64,000 nucleotides of DNA from positions 1,550,001 through 1,614,000 of the forward strand of contig NZ_JALLPL010000001.1 of the NCBI RefSeq assembly GCF_023276355.1. Reading direction: 5' to 3'. Source of the DNA: Haloplanus sp. XH21. Lineage in GTDB: Archaea; Halobacteriota; Halobacteria; Halobacteriales; Haloferacaceae. This document shows, piece by piece, positions 20,200 to 44,760 of the stretch (the stretch's first letter is position 1; every line of letters begins with the position of its first letter). The translations under genes were made by a program, and so were the position numbers. A model generated the notes under the pieces. The model worked only from the letters and a program-made list of their open reading frames with translations. It was not told the DNA's origin and made no database searches.

Positions 20200-20634
20200 T
20201 TACTCTTCGCCGATATTGACGACGAACACCGGCACTGTCGCGTTCTCGACGATGCGCTCGGTGACGCTGCCGAGATGTGCGAGGCGGTCCCGACCGGTCC
20301 GTCCGTGGGTGCCCATCGTGATGACGTCTACCCCTGCCTCGTCGGCGTATTGGAGGATGGCCTTGTAGGGGATTCCCTCGCGTACGTCGGTCACGACGTC
20401 GACGCCGGCGTCGGCGGCCGCGTCGGCGACGGCGGCGACGGCCGTCTCACCACGGTCACGCAGTCGCTCGATCAGGTCGTCGCGGTCCTCGTCGGCCGCG
20501 AGTTCGAAGCGGCGGTCGATGACGTACAGCGCGTGGACCGTCGCGTCGTGGTTCCGGGCCATCTCCAGCGCGTGTTCGAGCGTGCGGTCGACCCCTTCGC
20601 TCCCGTCCGTCGGAACGAGTATCGCGTCGTACAT
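20200..20634 (-). CDS. Universal stress protein (UspA family)
   Basis: A 144-residue Usp protein with the full ATP-binding signature: the first strand MYDAILVPTDGSEGVDRTLEHALEMA and the motif MGTHGRTGRDRLAHLGSVTERI, which is the G-x2-G-x9-G-S/T loop. It probably binds ATP, unlike the Usp at 11030. ATG 20634 is used because it begins the first beta strand. Its stop is 8 bp from the end of the convergent malic enzyme gene. Confidence 0.93.
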   Translation of the reverse strand: MYDAILVPTDGSEGVDRTLEHALEMARNHDATVHALYVIDRRFELAADEDRDDLIERLRDRGETAVAAVADAAADAGVDVVTDVREGIPYKAILQYADEAGVDVITMGTHGRTGRDRLAHLGSVTERIVENATVPVFVVNIGEE

Positions 20635-20670
20635 GGCCGACGGTTCGCGCCCACCGTACTTCAAACGATT

Positions 20671-20757: not shown

Positions 20758-20803
20758 AGATGGCCGTAACGTACATGTTCGTTCCCTGCACTCATGTGAA
20801 CGT

Positions 20804-26178: not shown

Positions 26179-26315
26179 TCGCGGATTCTGTCTTACGGCA
26201 TACCACCGTTGACGGGGGTATTTGAAATGGCTTTCCTTTTGCCCGCCGGTGATTCGTTCGCCGCGTGACGTGTCGCTCCGACGGGCATATGGTGATCGCT
26301 CCGAACGGATCTATA

Positions 26316-26870
26316 ATGAACGCACGCGAACGCGTCCCCGAACTCACGGCGCTCCTCTCGGTAATGTCGCTGTCGCTGGTGTTCGGTGCCGTCCTCGGCG
26401 TGATTCCGCGAGGCGCCATCCCACGGGCACCGGCGGCCGTAATCGCGTCGATTCCACACGTCAACGCCGCCATCAGCGTCGTGGCGGTCGTCGCCATCCT
26501 CGCCGGCGTTCGGTTCGCGCGCCGGCGACGGTTCCGACGGCACCGCGCCGCAATGTTGCTCTCGACCGCGCTCTTCGTCGCTTTCCTCGTTCTCTACCTC
26601 TACAAGGTGATCATGGAAGGACCGTCGACGTTCACCGGACCGGAGACGGTCTATCAGTGGCTCTACCTGCCTCTGCTGGCCGTCCACATCCTACTCGCCG
26701 TCGTCTGCATCCCGCTGCTGTACTACGTGTTGTTGCTCGCGACGACGCGTCCCATCGAGGCGCTGACGCGGACGGCCCACGCACGCGTCGGGCGCGTGGC
26801 CGCGAGCCTCTGGTTGATCTCGTTCGTGCTCGGCACCGTCGTCTACGCCATGTTGTACGTGGTGTACTGA
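26316..26870 (+). CDS. DUF420 family membrane protein
   Basis: A 184-residue protein with five hydrophobic segments. The pattern IPHVNAAISVVAVVAILAG, RRRFRRHRAAMLLSTALFVAFLVLYLYKV and LPLLAVHILLAVVCIPLLYYV is characteristic of DUF420, found near cytochrome oxidase and heme genes; the conserved His residues (PHVNA, FRRHR, VHI, TAHAR) could bind heme or copper. Start candidates are 26289 and 26316; the second is preferred because it precedes the first helix closely. It may serve a terminal oxidase or the nearby copper enzyme NirK, but no direct link is visible. Confidence 0.85.
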   Translation: MNARERVPELTALLSVMSLSLVFGAVLGVIPRGAIPRAPAAVIASIPHVNAAISVVAVVAILAGVRFARRRRFRRHRAAMLLSTALFVAFLVLYLYKVIMEGPSTFTGPETVYQWLYLPLLAVHILLAVVCIPLLYYVLLLATTRPIEALTRTAHARVGRVAASLWLISFVLGTVVYAMLYVVY

Positions 26871-26898: not shown

Positions 26899-27174
26899 CT
26901 ACTCGACGTACAGCGAGTAGACGATGACCGCGAATCCGACGAGCGTGAGCGCGCTCTCGATGACGATCGACTGAGCGAGCGAGAGCGAGGTGAACTGGTG
27001 GCCGACGCCAGCCAGCAGGGCGCCGACGGTGATGAGGCCGAAGCCGATGCCGAGCGCGCGGAGGGCCGGCGAGCCAGTCCGGTGGTGGGCCTTGAACGCG
27101 AGGAAGGTGATGAGACCCCCGAACAGGAGCGTCGCGGTCTTGACGGCCGTGAGCGCGATATCGAGATGACTCAT
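26899..27174 (-). CDS. Small membrane protein (DUF7521-like)
   Basis: A 91-residue protein with three hydrophobic segments: MSHLDIALTAVKTATLLFGGLITFLAF, LGIGFGLITVGALLAGVGH and IESALTLVGFAVIVYSLYV. It matches a haloarchaeal family that is commonly encoded right after a small winged-helix regulator, as here (4-nt ATGA overlap with the 27171-27548 gene). Function unknown. The pair may be a membrane component with a dedicated regulator. Confidence 0.8.
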   Translation of the reverse strand: MSHLDIALTAVKTATLLFGGLITFLAFKAHHRTGSPALRALGIGFGLITVGALLAGVGHQFTSLSLAQSIVIESALTLVGFAVIVYSLYVE

Positions 27175-27548
27175 GTCTCCTTTCGAACCTCCCCCCACAG
27201 CGACGCCAGGCGCTCGTCCGCCGTCCGGGACGGCCGACTGATCGACGCGTCGAGTGTTCGGTCTTCGGTCAGTTCGATTTCGACCGTCTCGAAATCCACC
27301 TCGTATCGGGTCGCGTGGTGACCGTCTGGCCTGAGTTCCGTGCTCTCCGCGAGCAGCGACGCCTCGGTCAGCAGGTCCAGTTTTCGGTATGTGGTCGACA
27401 TGGGTATTTCACACTCCTCTGACACTTCAGTCGCGGTCATGGGTTCGTCCAGGTGCTGGACGATGGTCCGGCAGTCGGGATCGTCGAGCGCGTCGAGAAC
27501 CGACTGCAGGTCGGGCGACGCCGCGCCCGACAACGGATCGCGCACCAT
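27171..27548 (-). CDS. Winged-helix regulator upstream of the DUF7521-like gene
   Basis: A 125-residue regulator. Residues 14-75 form a winged helix: LQSVLDALDDPDCRTIVQHLDEPMTATEVSEECEIPMSTTYRKLDLLTEASLLAESTELR, in which the recognition helix is MSTTYRKLDLL. This belongs to the large haloarchaeal HTH-20/ArsR-like group. Its stop overlaps the start of the membrane protein gene (ATGA), so translation is coupled. A perfect 10-bp palindrome lies 7 bp upstream of its start and may be an autoregulatory operator. Confidence 0.87.
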   Translation of the reverse strand: MVRDPLSGAASPDLQSVLDALDDPDCRTIVQHLDEPMTATEVSEECEIPMSTTYRKLDLLTEASLLAESTELRPDGHHATRYEVDFETVEIELTEDRTLDASISRPSRTADERLASLWGEVRKET

Positions 27549-27638: not shown

Positions 27639-27650
27639 CGAACATGTTCG
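27639..27650. promoter_or_regulatory. CGAACATGTTCG palindrome, candidate anaerobic/denitrification operator
   Basis: A perfect 12-bp palindrome lies 42 bp upstream of the MoaD-like gene, immediately before a weak TATA-like tract (CATACCTTTT). A similar CGAA-N4-TTCG element lies upstream of nirK (28177-28188). A semi-palindromic element of this kind has been proposed for haloarchaeal denitrification promoters controlled by NarO; I cannot verify the published consensus here. Confidence 0.6.
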
Positions 27651-27691: not shown

Positions 27692-28093
27692 ATGAGCACG
27701 ACGACCGACACCGAGAGTACGACCCCGCAGACGACGACCGTTGCGCTCCGTGCGACGGGGCACGTCCGCGACGCGATGGAGACTCCCCAGCAGGAGTTCA
27801 CCTTCGAGGGCGACACCCTGCGCGACCTGCTGGAGGAGTTCTTCGATCAGCACCCCGAGCTCGCGGAGATGCTCATCGCCGAGACGGAGGCGGAAGCGTC
27901 GACCAGCGGGTGGGCCAAACCCCCCGAGAACCTGCCCGGAACGTGGCACAAGAACCCCGAGGGCGAACAGACCAAGCCCTTCGCGCGAGTGATGGTCAAC
28001 GGGAAGTTCAACGAAGTGCTCGACGGCTTCGACACGAAGATATCGGATGGCGACCGCGTGAGCTTCGTCTACCCGTTCATCTTCTGTTGCTGA
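27692..28093 (+). CDS. MoaD/ThiS-like beta-grasp protein ending in Cys-Cys
   Basis: A 133-residue ubiquitin-like protein. The N-terminal 20 residues are a Thr-rich tail; the fold then begins TTVALRATGHVRDAM, with the helix DTLRDLLEEFFDQHPELAEML and the closing ARVMVNGKFNEVLDGFDTKISDGDRVSFVYPF. Canonical sulfur carriers (MoaD, ThiS, SAMPs) end in Gly-Gly, which is thiocarboxylated; here the last residues are FCC. An insertion (WAKPPENLPGTWHKNPEGEQ) separates the two halves. It sits 174 bp upstream of nirK, and both genes have a CGAA-N4-TTCG palindrome, so a role in copper nitrite reductase maturation or NO metabolism is possible but unproven. Confidence 0.85.
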   Translation: MSTTTDTESTTPQTTTVALRATGHVRDAMETPQQEFTFEGDTLRDLLEEFFDQHPELAEMLIAETEAEASTSGWAKPPENLPGTWHKNPEGEQTKPFARVMVNGKFNEVLDGFDTKISDGDRVSFVYPFIFCC

Positions 28094-28176: not shown

Positions 28177-28188
28177 CGAACGGATTCG
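28177..28188. promoter_or_regulatory. CGAACGGATTCG inverted repeat upstream of nirK
   Basis: CGAA and TTCG half-sites separated by four bases match the palindrome at 27639-27650 in both half-sites. It lies about 80 bp upstream of the nirK start and just after a TTTTAT tract (28163-28168). A nirK leader of tens of bases would therefore be needed if it acts on that promoter. Confidence 0.45.
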
Positions 28189-28267: not shown

Positions 28268-29383
28268 ATGCTCGAAACTACCCGGCGGCGAACGCTCCAG
28301 GCACTCGGCGTCGGCGGTGCGGCGACGGTTGCGGGGTGTAGCGCGGAGGCACCGAACGCGGAGCAAGCCGAAACCGAGCGGCAGCGAATGGAACAGCAGT
28401 CCGGTTCGATAGCGGATCAGGTCGCTGCCGATCCGACCGATATTCCGGGGCCGATAGACCGGGACGAGTCGACCACCCACGAAATCACGCTGACCGCCGA
28501 AGAGGTGACTGCCGAGATCGAACCCGGCGTCACGTTCGATTTCATGACGTTCGACGGGCAGATTCCCGGGCCAATGATTCGGATTCGGCAGGGGGATACG
28601 GTCGATCTGACGATCGAGAACCCCTCCGGGAACGTGCTCCCACACAACGTGGACTTCCACGCCGTCTACGGCACCGGCGGTGGGGCCGCAGCGACGACGG
28701 TCGCACCTGGCGAGGAGAACGCCCTCCGCTTCCGAGCGGACTACCCGGGGGCGTTCATCTACCACTGTGCCGTGCCGAACCTCGACATGCACATCAGTGC
28801 TGGCATGTTCGGCATGATCCTCGTCGAGCCGGAAAACGGGCTGCCCGAGGTCGATCAAGAACTCTACTTCGGGCAGCACGAGGTCTACACCGACGGCGAG
28901 GCCGGGCAGGAGGGCAAGCACCGTTTCGACATGGAGTCGATGAAAAACGAAGCGCCGACGTACGTCCTCCTGAACGGGGAGAAGTACGCCTGGGCAGCCG
29001 CCAACCGCGGCCCCATAGAGGTCGATCAGGGCGACCGTGTCCGGGTGTTCATGGTCGACGGCGGCCCGAACCTCTCCAGCAACTTCCACCCAATCGGAAA
29101 CGTCTGGAAGCGGGCCTACCGCGACGGAGGCGTGCCCGAGGACGGTGACTTCGAGGCCTACGCCGATAAGAACATCCAGACGATGAAGGTGCCGCCGGGA
29201 AGCTGCATGATCGGCGAGATGGACACGCCGGTGCCCGAACGCATCAAACTCGTCGACCACGCGCTCAGCCGCGTCGCGCGGCGGGGGATGTTGGCCGAAG
29301 TCGATGTGCTCGGAGAGGAGCGGGCGGAGATCTTCGACCCCGACGCCAACGGCTCCAGCCACGAGGGGCCGCAGTACGCCTGA
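28268..29383 (+). CDS. nirK: Copper-containing nitrite reductase
   Basis: NirK reduces nitrite to nitric oxide in denitrification at the outer face of the membrane. The 371-residue protein begins with a Tat-like lipoprotein signal (TTRRRTLQALGVGGAATVAGC). Type 1 copper ligands are H126, C167, H175 and M180; type 2 ligands are H131, H166 and, from the second cupredoxin domain, H331. The active-site Asp129 and His274 are also present. Both cupredoxin domains are complete. The electron donor is probably a halocyanin, which is not seen in this window. No norB or nosZ is nearby. Confidence 0.96.
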   Translation: MLETTRRRTLQALGVGGAATVAGCSAEAPNAEQAETERQRMEQQSGSIADQVAADPTDIPGPIDRDESTTHEITLTAEEVTAEIEPGVTFDFMTFDGQIPGPMIRIRQGDTVDLTIENPSGNVLPHNVDFHAVYGTGGGAAATTVAPGEENALRFRADYPGAFIYHCAVPNLDMHISAGMFGMILVEPENGLPEVDQELYFGQHEVYTDGEAGQEGKHRFDMESMKNEAPTYVLLNGEKYAWAAANRGPIEVDQGDRVRVFMVDGGPNLSSNFHPIGNVWKRAYRDGGVPEDGDFEAYADKNIQTMKVPPGSCMIGEMDTPVPERIKLVDHALSRVARRGMLAEVDVLGEERAEIFDPDANGSSHEGPQYA

Positions 29384-43854: not shown

Positions 43855-44760
43855 ATGGCACCCGTTTCGGTCACCCGCTCGGCCCTCATCACGGTCGTGA
43901 TCGGTCTTCTCGTCGCTGGGACCGTCGCGAGCGTCGGCGTCGCCGTCGAAGAACCGCGAGACGAACCCGCCGACACGAGCCCACCCGTTCGCGTCTACGT
44001 CAGTGAAACGCTCGACATCTCCGACGCCCAACTCACGGGCGGCGGCACGGTCGGCACGGACGAGACGACGTTCGTCTCGATACACGGCGACGAGGTGTTC
44101 AGCGTCGCTCCCGCAGACGCCGATTTCGACGGCATCGACCCCGGATCGTACGACGCCGACGGGGACGACGAAGCCGATTTGCTCGTCGTGCGCCCGCGAG
44201 TCACCGAGTTCGAGGTGCGCAACGAGCGAGGCGTCAACATCAAAGGCGACACGGTCGACGCGAACGACTTCGAGGAAGTGACGATCAGGGTCGAGTACAA
44301 CTTCGCCGAGGCGGACCGCCTCGACGTGACCGTAGAGTCGCCGGATGGCGTCGACCTCGCTGGGAACCGCCGTCTCACCGAGAGCGGCGATAGCGTCACC
44401 GTCGACACGAGCGGTGCCGACTCCGGAACCTATCGTATCGCCGTCGAGGGGAGCAACATCGAGGCCGGCGCCGCGACGACGACCGTGACCGTCGCGGGTG
44501 GGCGAACGGCGACCGCAACGGCGACGGCAACCGCAACGGCGACGGCGACCGCAACGGCGACGGCGACGCCCACTGCTACGACGACGCCCACGCCGACCCC
44601 CACCGCGACGCCCACGGCGTCCCCGACTCCGACTGTGACGCCCACGGCGACGCCGACGGGGACTCCGACGCCGACGGAATCGTCCGGCTCCGGGTTCGGC
44701 GTCGTCGTCGCCGTCGTGACCCTGCTGGTCGCGGCGCTGGTGACCGTTCGCCGTGACTGA
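43855..44760 (+). CDS. Surface protein with variant (SGF) CTERM sorting signal
   Basis: A 301-residue secreted protein. The signal peptide is SVTRSALITVVIGLLVAGTVASVGVAV. A beta domain of about 170 residues (VRVYVSETLDISDAQLTGGGTVGTDETTFVSIHG...) resembles haloarchaeal S-layer/BGTF-associated domains. A long Thr-rich linker follows (44503-44683). The C-terminus is SGSGFGVVVAVVTLLVAALVTVRRD: the PGF-CTERM layout of motif, hydrophobic helix and Arg cluster, but with Ser in place of the Pro. It is probably still an archaeosortase A substrate. Confidence 0.85.
   Translation: MAPVSVTRSALITVVIGLLVAGTVASVGVAVEEPRDEPADTSPPVRVYVSETLDISDAQLTGGGTVGTDETTFVSIHGDEVFSVAPADADFDGIDPGSYDADGDDEADLLVVRPRVTEFEVRNERGVNIKGDTVDANDFEEVTIRVEYNFAEADRLDVTVESPDGVDLAGNRRLTESGDSVTVDTSGADSGTYRIAVEGSNIEAGAATTTVTVAGGRTATATATATATATATATATATPTATTTPTPTPTATPTASPTPTVTPTATPTGTPTPTESSGSGFGVVVAVVTLLVAALVTVRRD
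44503..44683 (+). repeat. Low-complexity tandem repeat encoding a Thr-rich linker
   Basis: Short units such as ACCGCAACGGCGACGGC are tandemly repeated and encode alternating Thr-Ala, then Thr-Pro. The encoded stalk is a likely O-glycosylation region between the surface domain and the membrane anchor, and such arrays are prone to slippage. Confidence 0.75.

Follow-up and report, generated by a model that had tools for sequence, protein, structure and literature searches.

A short gene in the genome of Haloplanus sp. XH21 (2.94 Mb) lies upstream of nirK, the gene for copper-containing nitrite reductase, and encodes a small protein of the MoaD/ThiS type with cysteines at its C terminus. In MoaD and SAMP biochemistry, a C-terminal Gly-Gly is needed for adenylation by an E1 enzyme and for formation of the thiocarboxylate. 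What does a protein of this fold do when its tail ends in cysteine, and does its place beside nirK reveal its role? A sequence-only reading of the 64,000-nucleotide stretch analyzed here (the window) proposed that the Cys-Cys end might bind copper or a persulfide and serve the maturation of NirK. Table 1 lists the features discussed.

Table 1. Features of the window around the Cys-tailed MoaD-like gene
Feature	Position	Strand	Evidence or remark
DUF420 membrane protein, recurrent upstream neighbor	26265–26870	+	Pfam 1.4e-36; 15 loci, 5 genera; true start may lie further in
DUF7521 membrane protein	26899–27198	-	Pfam 8.3e-32; 12 loci; conserved Haloplanus neighbor
Divergent HTH_20 (ArsR-like) regulator	27171–27548	-	Pfam HTH_20 7.5e-12; position -1 in 11 loci; conserved in Haloplanus
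Palindromic operator CGAACATGTTCG	27639–27650		No other site in the window matches CGAAYATDKTYG exactly
MoaD/ThiS-like protein with Cys tail, 133 amino acids	27692–28093	+	Pfam ThiS E 9.8e-07; homologues in 185/292 Halobacteria genomes
Family-specific insert, residues 65–94, GW...LPGTW.KNPEGEQT	27884–27973	+	About 26 residues unaligned with Gly-Gly SAMP1/MoaD proteins
Codon of Cys132, invariant penultimate cysteine	28085–28087	+	Cys in 120/120 intact homologues
Codon of Cys133, variable last residue	28088–28090	+	C 94, L 16, V 6, F 3, R 1
Operator-like palindrome CGAACGGATTCG of nirK	28177–28188		79 bp before nirK ATG; weaker than CGAACATGTTCG
nirK, copper-containing nitrite reductase	28268–29383	+	TIGR02376 E 8.1e-113, above cut-off

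A MoaD/ThiS-like family with an invariant penultimate cysteine

The open frame ends in FVYPFIFCC followed by a stop codon, with TGT TGC TGA at 28085–28093. Its product scores 29.7 bits against Pfam PF02597 (cut-off 22.5), which places it in the ThiS/MoaD superfamily, and comparison of the family profile with that of Gly-Gly SAMP1 proteins gives a probability of 96.7% over 85 aligned columns. The beta-grasp fold read from the letters is thereby borne out. The same protein falls short of the curated cut-offs of two more specific models, scoring 29.6 bits against 60 for SAMP1 (NF041918) and 37.7 against 49.5 for archaeal MoaD (TIGR01687, moaD_arch). Structure prediction, suggested in the earlier reading and run on two sequences, was poor (pLDDT 44.7); it gives weak support for the strand order and nothing beyond that. 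The profile alignment reveals an insert that Gly-Gly SAMP1/MoaD proteins lack, and within it G73, W74, N88, P89, and G91 are conserved at 99–100% in the homologue alignment. By inspection, the protein has no visible signal sequence. Its nearest named relative, from Haloplanus ruber, is 83% identical and was the sole locus to emerge from a single-sequence scan of genome contigs; no phage match was found.

The tail was examined in genes read from 121 genomes, one of which was set aside as truncated. All 120 intact members carry the equivalent of Cys132, after which 94 have a second Cys and the others Leu, Val, Phe, or Arg (Table 1). The homologues of relatives end in P-F-h-[FY]-C-x. Because the penultimate cysteine is always kept and the last residue varies, the alignment marks Cys132 as the cysteine that matters and the double cysteine as a common, not a required, form. 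The Cys-Cys end noted at the outset is thus real and its tail conserved, but only its first cysteine is invariant. An error in the last codons of the sequence is ruled out, since the relatives keep the motif and the penultimate cysteine is retained in 120 of 121 genomes.

The loss of the diglycine also holds. Gly-Gly occurs nowhere in the last 12 residues of the 133-residue protein. Homologues with Gly-Gly at the same position, named beforehand as the result that would overturn the claim, were not encountered: among those searched in Halobacteria and Halobacteriota genomes, no member of the insert-containing family had one. A hidden Gly-Gly unmasked by cleavage, as in QbsE-type proteins, was considered and ruled out, since the last 12 residues contain no Gly. 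With the conserved D-G-D as anchor, the tail exceeds that of Gly-Gly proteins by one residue. The profile alignment pairs Cys132 with the terminal Gly of SAMP1 and leaves residue 133 as the extra one, although a slip by one residue in this alignment is possible. The family thus lacks the C-terminal Gly-Gly that a functional sulfur carrier or SAMP presents to its E1 enzyme, so neither adenylation nor thiocarboxylate formation would be expected of this protein.

Of the Halobacteria genomes sampled, about 63% contain a homologue (Table 1), and so do 35 of the 60 genomes of the host and its relatives that were searched. Beyond Halobacteria, a search of 148 Halobacteriota genomes turned up no members; the matches there were to distant MoaD proteins and covered only the last strands.

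Operator, neighbors, and co-occurrence with denitrification genes

Denitrification promoters of Haloferax mediterranei have CGAAYATDKTYG in common (PMC10062603, PMC11218638). Mutation of this element made the nor and nos promoters significantly less active, and the drop for nir was not significant (PMC10062603). The palindrome CGAACATGTTCG, the same 12-mer as in the nor and nos promoters of that species, lies 41 bp ahead of the Cys-tailed gene's start codon. The window contains only four CGAA-N4-TTCG sites; one is CGAACATGTTCG and another is CGAACGGATTCG upstream of nirK, in agreement with the earlier proposal that the two genes have an operator type in common. A CGAA-N4-TTCG site also lies 79–81 bp before nirK in 9/9 other Haloplanus-type nirK genes checked. 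Separately, CGTACATGTTCG at 20770–20781 of the window, with one mismatch to the denitrification operator, stands just upstream of a universal-stress-protein gene (20200–20664, minus strand).

When we searched the 240 bp upstream of family genes, CGAA-N4-TTCG was found for 110 of 121, compared with 3.5% of background windows taken from the same loci. It also precedes 41 of 47 family genes in genomes that lack nirK. Because the neighbors vary widely between genera, the operator tracks this gene and no fixed neighborhood. The host genome has eight operator-matching places, five of them palindromic: upstream of the Cys-tailed gene, in the gap between norB and an HTH_10/BAT-type regulator, upstream of a COX1/NnrS-like gene and of a DUF2249 gene, and at a halocyanin gene (names that combine sequence reading with family matches of relatives). 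The conserved CGAAYATDKTYG palindrome in its promoter suggests that the Cys-tailed gene probably belongs to the anaerobic/denitrification regulon, and we infer that it is induced through CGAA-N4-TTCG. The main texts of PMC10062603 and PMC11218638 make no mention of a MoaD-like member of the regulon. Conservation of the operator speaks of regulation, not of chemistry.

The 174-bp interval between the Cys-tailed gene and nirK is as the sequence-only reading had it, and about 7 of 36 genera show the two genes linked: Haloplanus, Halobaculum, Haloprofundus, and four others. Genus g14 was left out of this count: its clustered "NirK" is a different protein, a two-domain Tat-type multicopper oxidase, and the Cys-tailed gene lies between it and norB (genomes G270, G222, G250, G105, and G131; loci L152–L154, L156, and L170). 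In three genera norB adjoins the gene. Other recurrent neighbors are TIGR04053 radical SAM proteins, CGCGG RiPP precursors, DUF2249 proteins, and NnrS-like proteins. SAMP1-type Gly-Gly genes adjoin it in five genera, joined in two of these by aldehyde ferredoxin oxidoreductase, and 37 of 88 loci have neither denitrification-type or radical SAM-type nor SAMP1-type neighbors. No sulfurtransferase or desulfurase recurs beside the gene at the loci examined.

Some further observations concern these loci and the window. Two small families without a Pfam match recur beside the gene, n16 (L052_13) in 6 genera and n11 (L140_6) in 5; S-P-F forms the C terminus of the n16 members shown. At L063:113-646, a 177-residue frame continues past the Gly-Gly of a SAMP1-type protein into another small Gly-Gly-ended protein (elsewhere an arCOG06308-like neighbor); either the two are fused or a stop codon has been lost. 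A low-complexity Val-Gly/Val-Ala repeat frame at 44430–44645 of the window (minus strand) is probably no gene.

Co-occurrence was counted in 249 Halobacteria genomes, and the following figures ignore relatedness and are descriptive. Odds ratios for the gene are 2.8 with nirK, 4.4 with norB, 7.5 with nosZ, and 4.1 with CGCGG, and its frequency is 24/69, 30/52, 67/85, and 38/43 in genomes with none, one, two, or three of nirK, norB, and nosZ. The gene occurs without nirK in 59 of the 159 genomes that bear it, and nirK without the gene in 34. Two Haloplanus-type genomes that have lost nirK keep both the gene and a perfect operator: G011 has no nirK, and G006 has a remnant only, a C-terminal part (L032:8684-9721) in frame with the following BAT/HTH_10 regulator. 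A role for NirK only is rejected by the co-occurrence, the linkage, and these two genomes. As a separate matter, the CGCGG putative rSAM-modified RiPP family (TIGR03995) tracks nirK very closely in the same 249 genomes (both 126, nirK only 8, CGCGG only 47, neither 68), and some CGCGG loci have the same operator upstream.

A role for NosZ only, as a supplier of sulfur for its CuZ site, is likewise rejected. Of the 75 genomes with nosZ, 67 have the gene, but it is also found in 92 genomes without nosZ, and the host genome gave no nosZ match. What survives of the proposed NirK role is thus the link to denitrification; the linkage and co-occurrence that a NirK-specific maturation factor should display throughout are seen in only part of the genera and genomes. 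Linkage to nirK is a recurring part of the tie to denitrification, not its essence. Since 24 of the 69 genomes devoid of nirK, norB, and nosZ still have the gene, its target may be broader than denitrification.

Possible functions of the cysteine tail

We favor, at a probability of roughly 40%, a model in which the Cys-tailed protein is an accessory factor for anaerobic respiration in haloarchaea, above all for denitrification, and uses the MoaD/ThiS fold as a persulfide carrier with the thiol on its tail. The CGAA-N4-TTCG operator would switch the gene on together with norB, nirK, and other denitrification genes. One thiol on the C-terminal tail would take the place of Gly-Gly/E1/thiocarboxylate chemistry, and a sulfurtransferase or desulfurase may load a persulfide onto Cys132, at the site where canonical MoaD carries its thiocarboxylate. 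The sulfur would then pass to an anaerobic metalloenzyme or cofactor in the manner of the penultimate cysteine of DsrC/TusE. By this analogy, a MoaD tail with one invariant thiol at its end suggests a persulfide carrier. More tentatively, the family may represent an unstudied class of sulfur carrier, in which a MoaD fold with the thiocarboxylate exchanged for a tail-cysteine persulfide has been recruited to the anaerobic regulon as a source of sulfur for denitrification or for other anaerobic enzymes.

The alternative that fares best, which we nonetheless judge rather unlikely, is that the protein carries nothing and acts as an adaptor or regulator. Its pseudo-MoaD tail would enter the pocket of MoaE, the E1 enzyme UbaA, or an anaerobic enzyme, with the cysteine as a redox- or NO-sensitive anchor. 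Retention of the fold and of the beta-strand leading into the tail, despite loss of the chemistry, fits such a role, as do the SAMP1-type genes alongside in five genera and the conserved insert, which could be a docking surface. However, a pure docking tail has no obvious need for an invariant cysteine, and most genera show no linkage to SAMP genes.

Distinctly unlikely is the suggestion that the Cys-Cys tail binds Cu(I) and delivers copper to NirK and other copper enzymes. The second cysteine, which a two-cysteine Cu(I) chaperone should conserve, is absent from 26 of 120 members (about 22%), including five nirK-linked loci in genus g62 that end in CL or CV, so a two-cysteine copper site is improbable. 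Moreover, NirK has an N-terminal Tat/lipobox-like signal by inspection and would therefore be exported, whereas the Cys-tailed protein lacks a signal sequence; the many gene-bearing genomes without nirK also count against this explanation. In its favor are the neighborhoods: nirK itself in about seven genera, a heavy-metal P-type ATPase in Haloprofundus, multicopper oxidases in Halobaculum and genus g14, and, in one genome, genes read as thioredoxin-like and CcdA-like between the gene and nirK.

We give still less weight to a lipid anchor at the C-terminal cysteine, similar to Rab-type -CC ends, that would tether the protein to the membrane near respiratory enzymes. Cysteine lipidation is known in archaea, and the hydrophobic Y-P-F-h-F-C-C tail places its cysteines at the very end, but many members end in a single cysteine followed by Leu, Val, or Phe, and we know of no archaeal enzyme that lipidates -CC-type ends. 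Finally, an ordinary SAMP or MoaD, with adenylation followed by a thiocarboxylate or an isopeptide bond, is scarcely credible: membership in the fold family speaks for it, but against it stand the absence of Gly-Gly in all members seen, the scores below the SAMP1 and moaD_arch cut-offs, and the canonical SAMP1-type proteins encoded elsewhere in the host genome, because of which the Cys-tailed protein is no substitute for SAMP1.

Comparison with known systems

Passages of Makarova and Koonin (2010) describe a halobacterial beta-grasp family, arCOG00539, with a double-cysteine C terminus (PMC2948915), and offer no function for it. No other paper in the literature searched names arCOG00539, and a search for MoaD proteins with a C-terminal cysteine yielded nothing useful. 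The Cys-tailed family is almost certainly arCOG00539, because fold, taxon, and motif agree: in the samples searched it is restricted to the class Halobacteria, has the ThiS fold, and ends in CC or C-x. The published passages note the motif, but they mention no regulon and do not report that only the first cysteine is invariant. The family is real, conserved, and previously noticed; its tie to the anaerobic/denitrification regulon is new. A family noticed in 2010 now extends over well over half of sampled Halobacteria genomes with a denitrification operator almost everywhere, and the gene gains a testable place in a pathway whose archaeal accessory factors are mostly unknown. Should the tail cysteine carry a persulfide, the MoaD/ubiquitin fold would be able to shift its chemistry from thiocarboxylate to thiol.

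SAMP1 and archaeal MoaD (NF041918, TIGR01687; structure 2m19) have the same fold and are at times encoded by neighboring genes. They differ from the Cys-tailed protein in their Gly-Gly, in a tail shorter by one residue, and in the absence of the insert of about 26 residues, and the protein stays below the cut-offs of both models. With the haloarchaeal denitrification regulon defined by CGAAYATDKTYG (PMC10062603, PMC11218638), the gene shares a 12-mer identical to that of the nor and nos promoters, here common to norB, the DUF2249 gene, and the halocyanin gene.

DsrC is persulfurated exclusively at its penultimate cysteine (PMC3397948). DsrC/TusE is a separate family: the Cys-tailed protein gave no match to TIGR03342 (DsrC/TusE), and its NCBIfam hits up to E = 1 are moaD_arch and SAMP1 only. 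The resemblance is one of working principle, drawn by analogy, in that DsrC/TusE works through a C-terminal tail whose penultimate cysteine is invariant, the position kept in every intact member of the Cys-tailed family.
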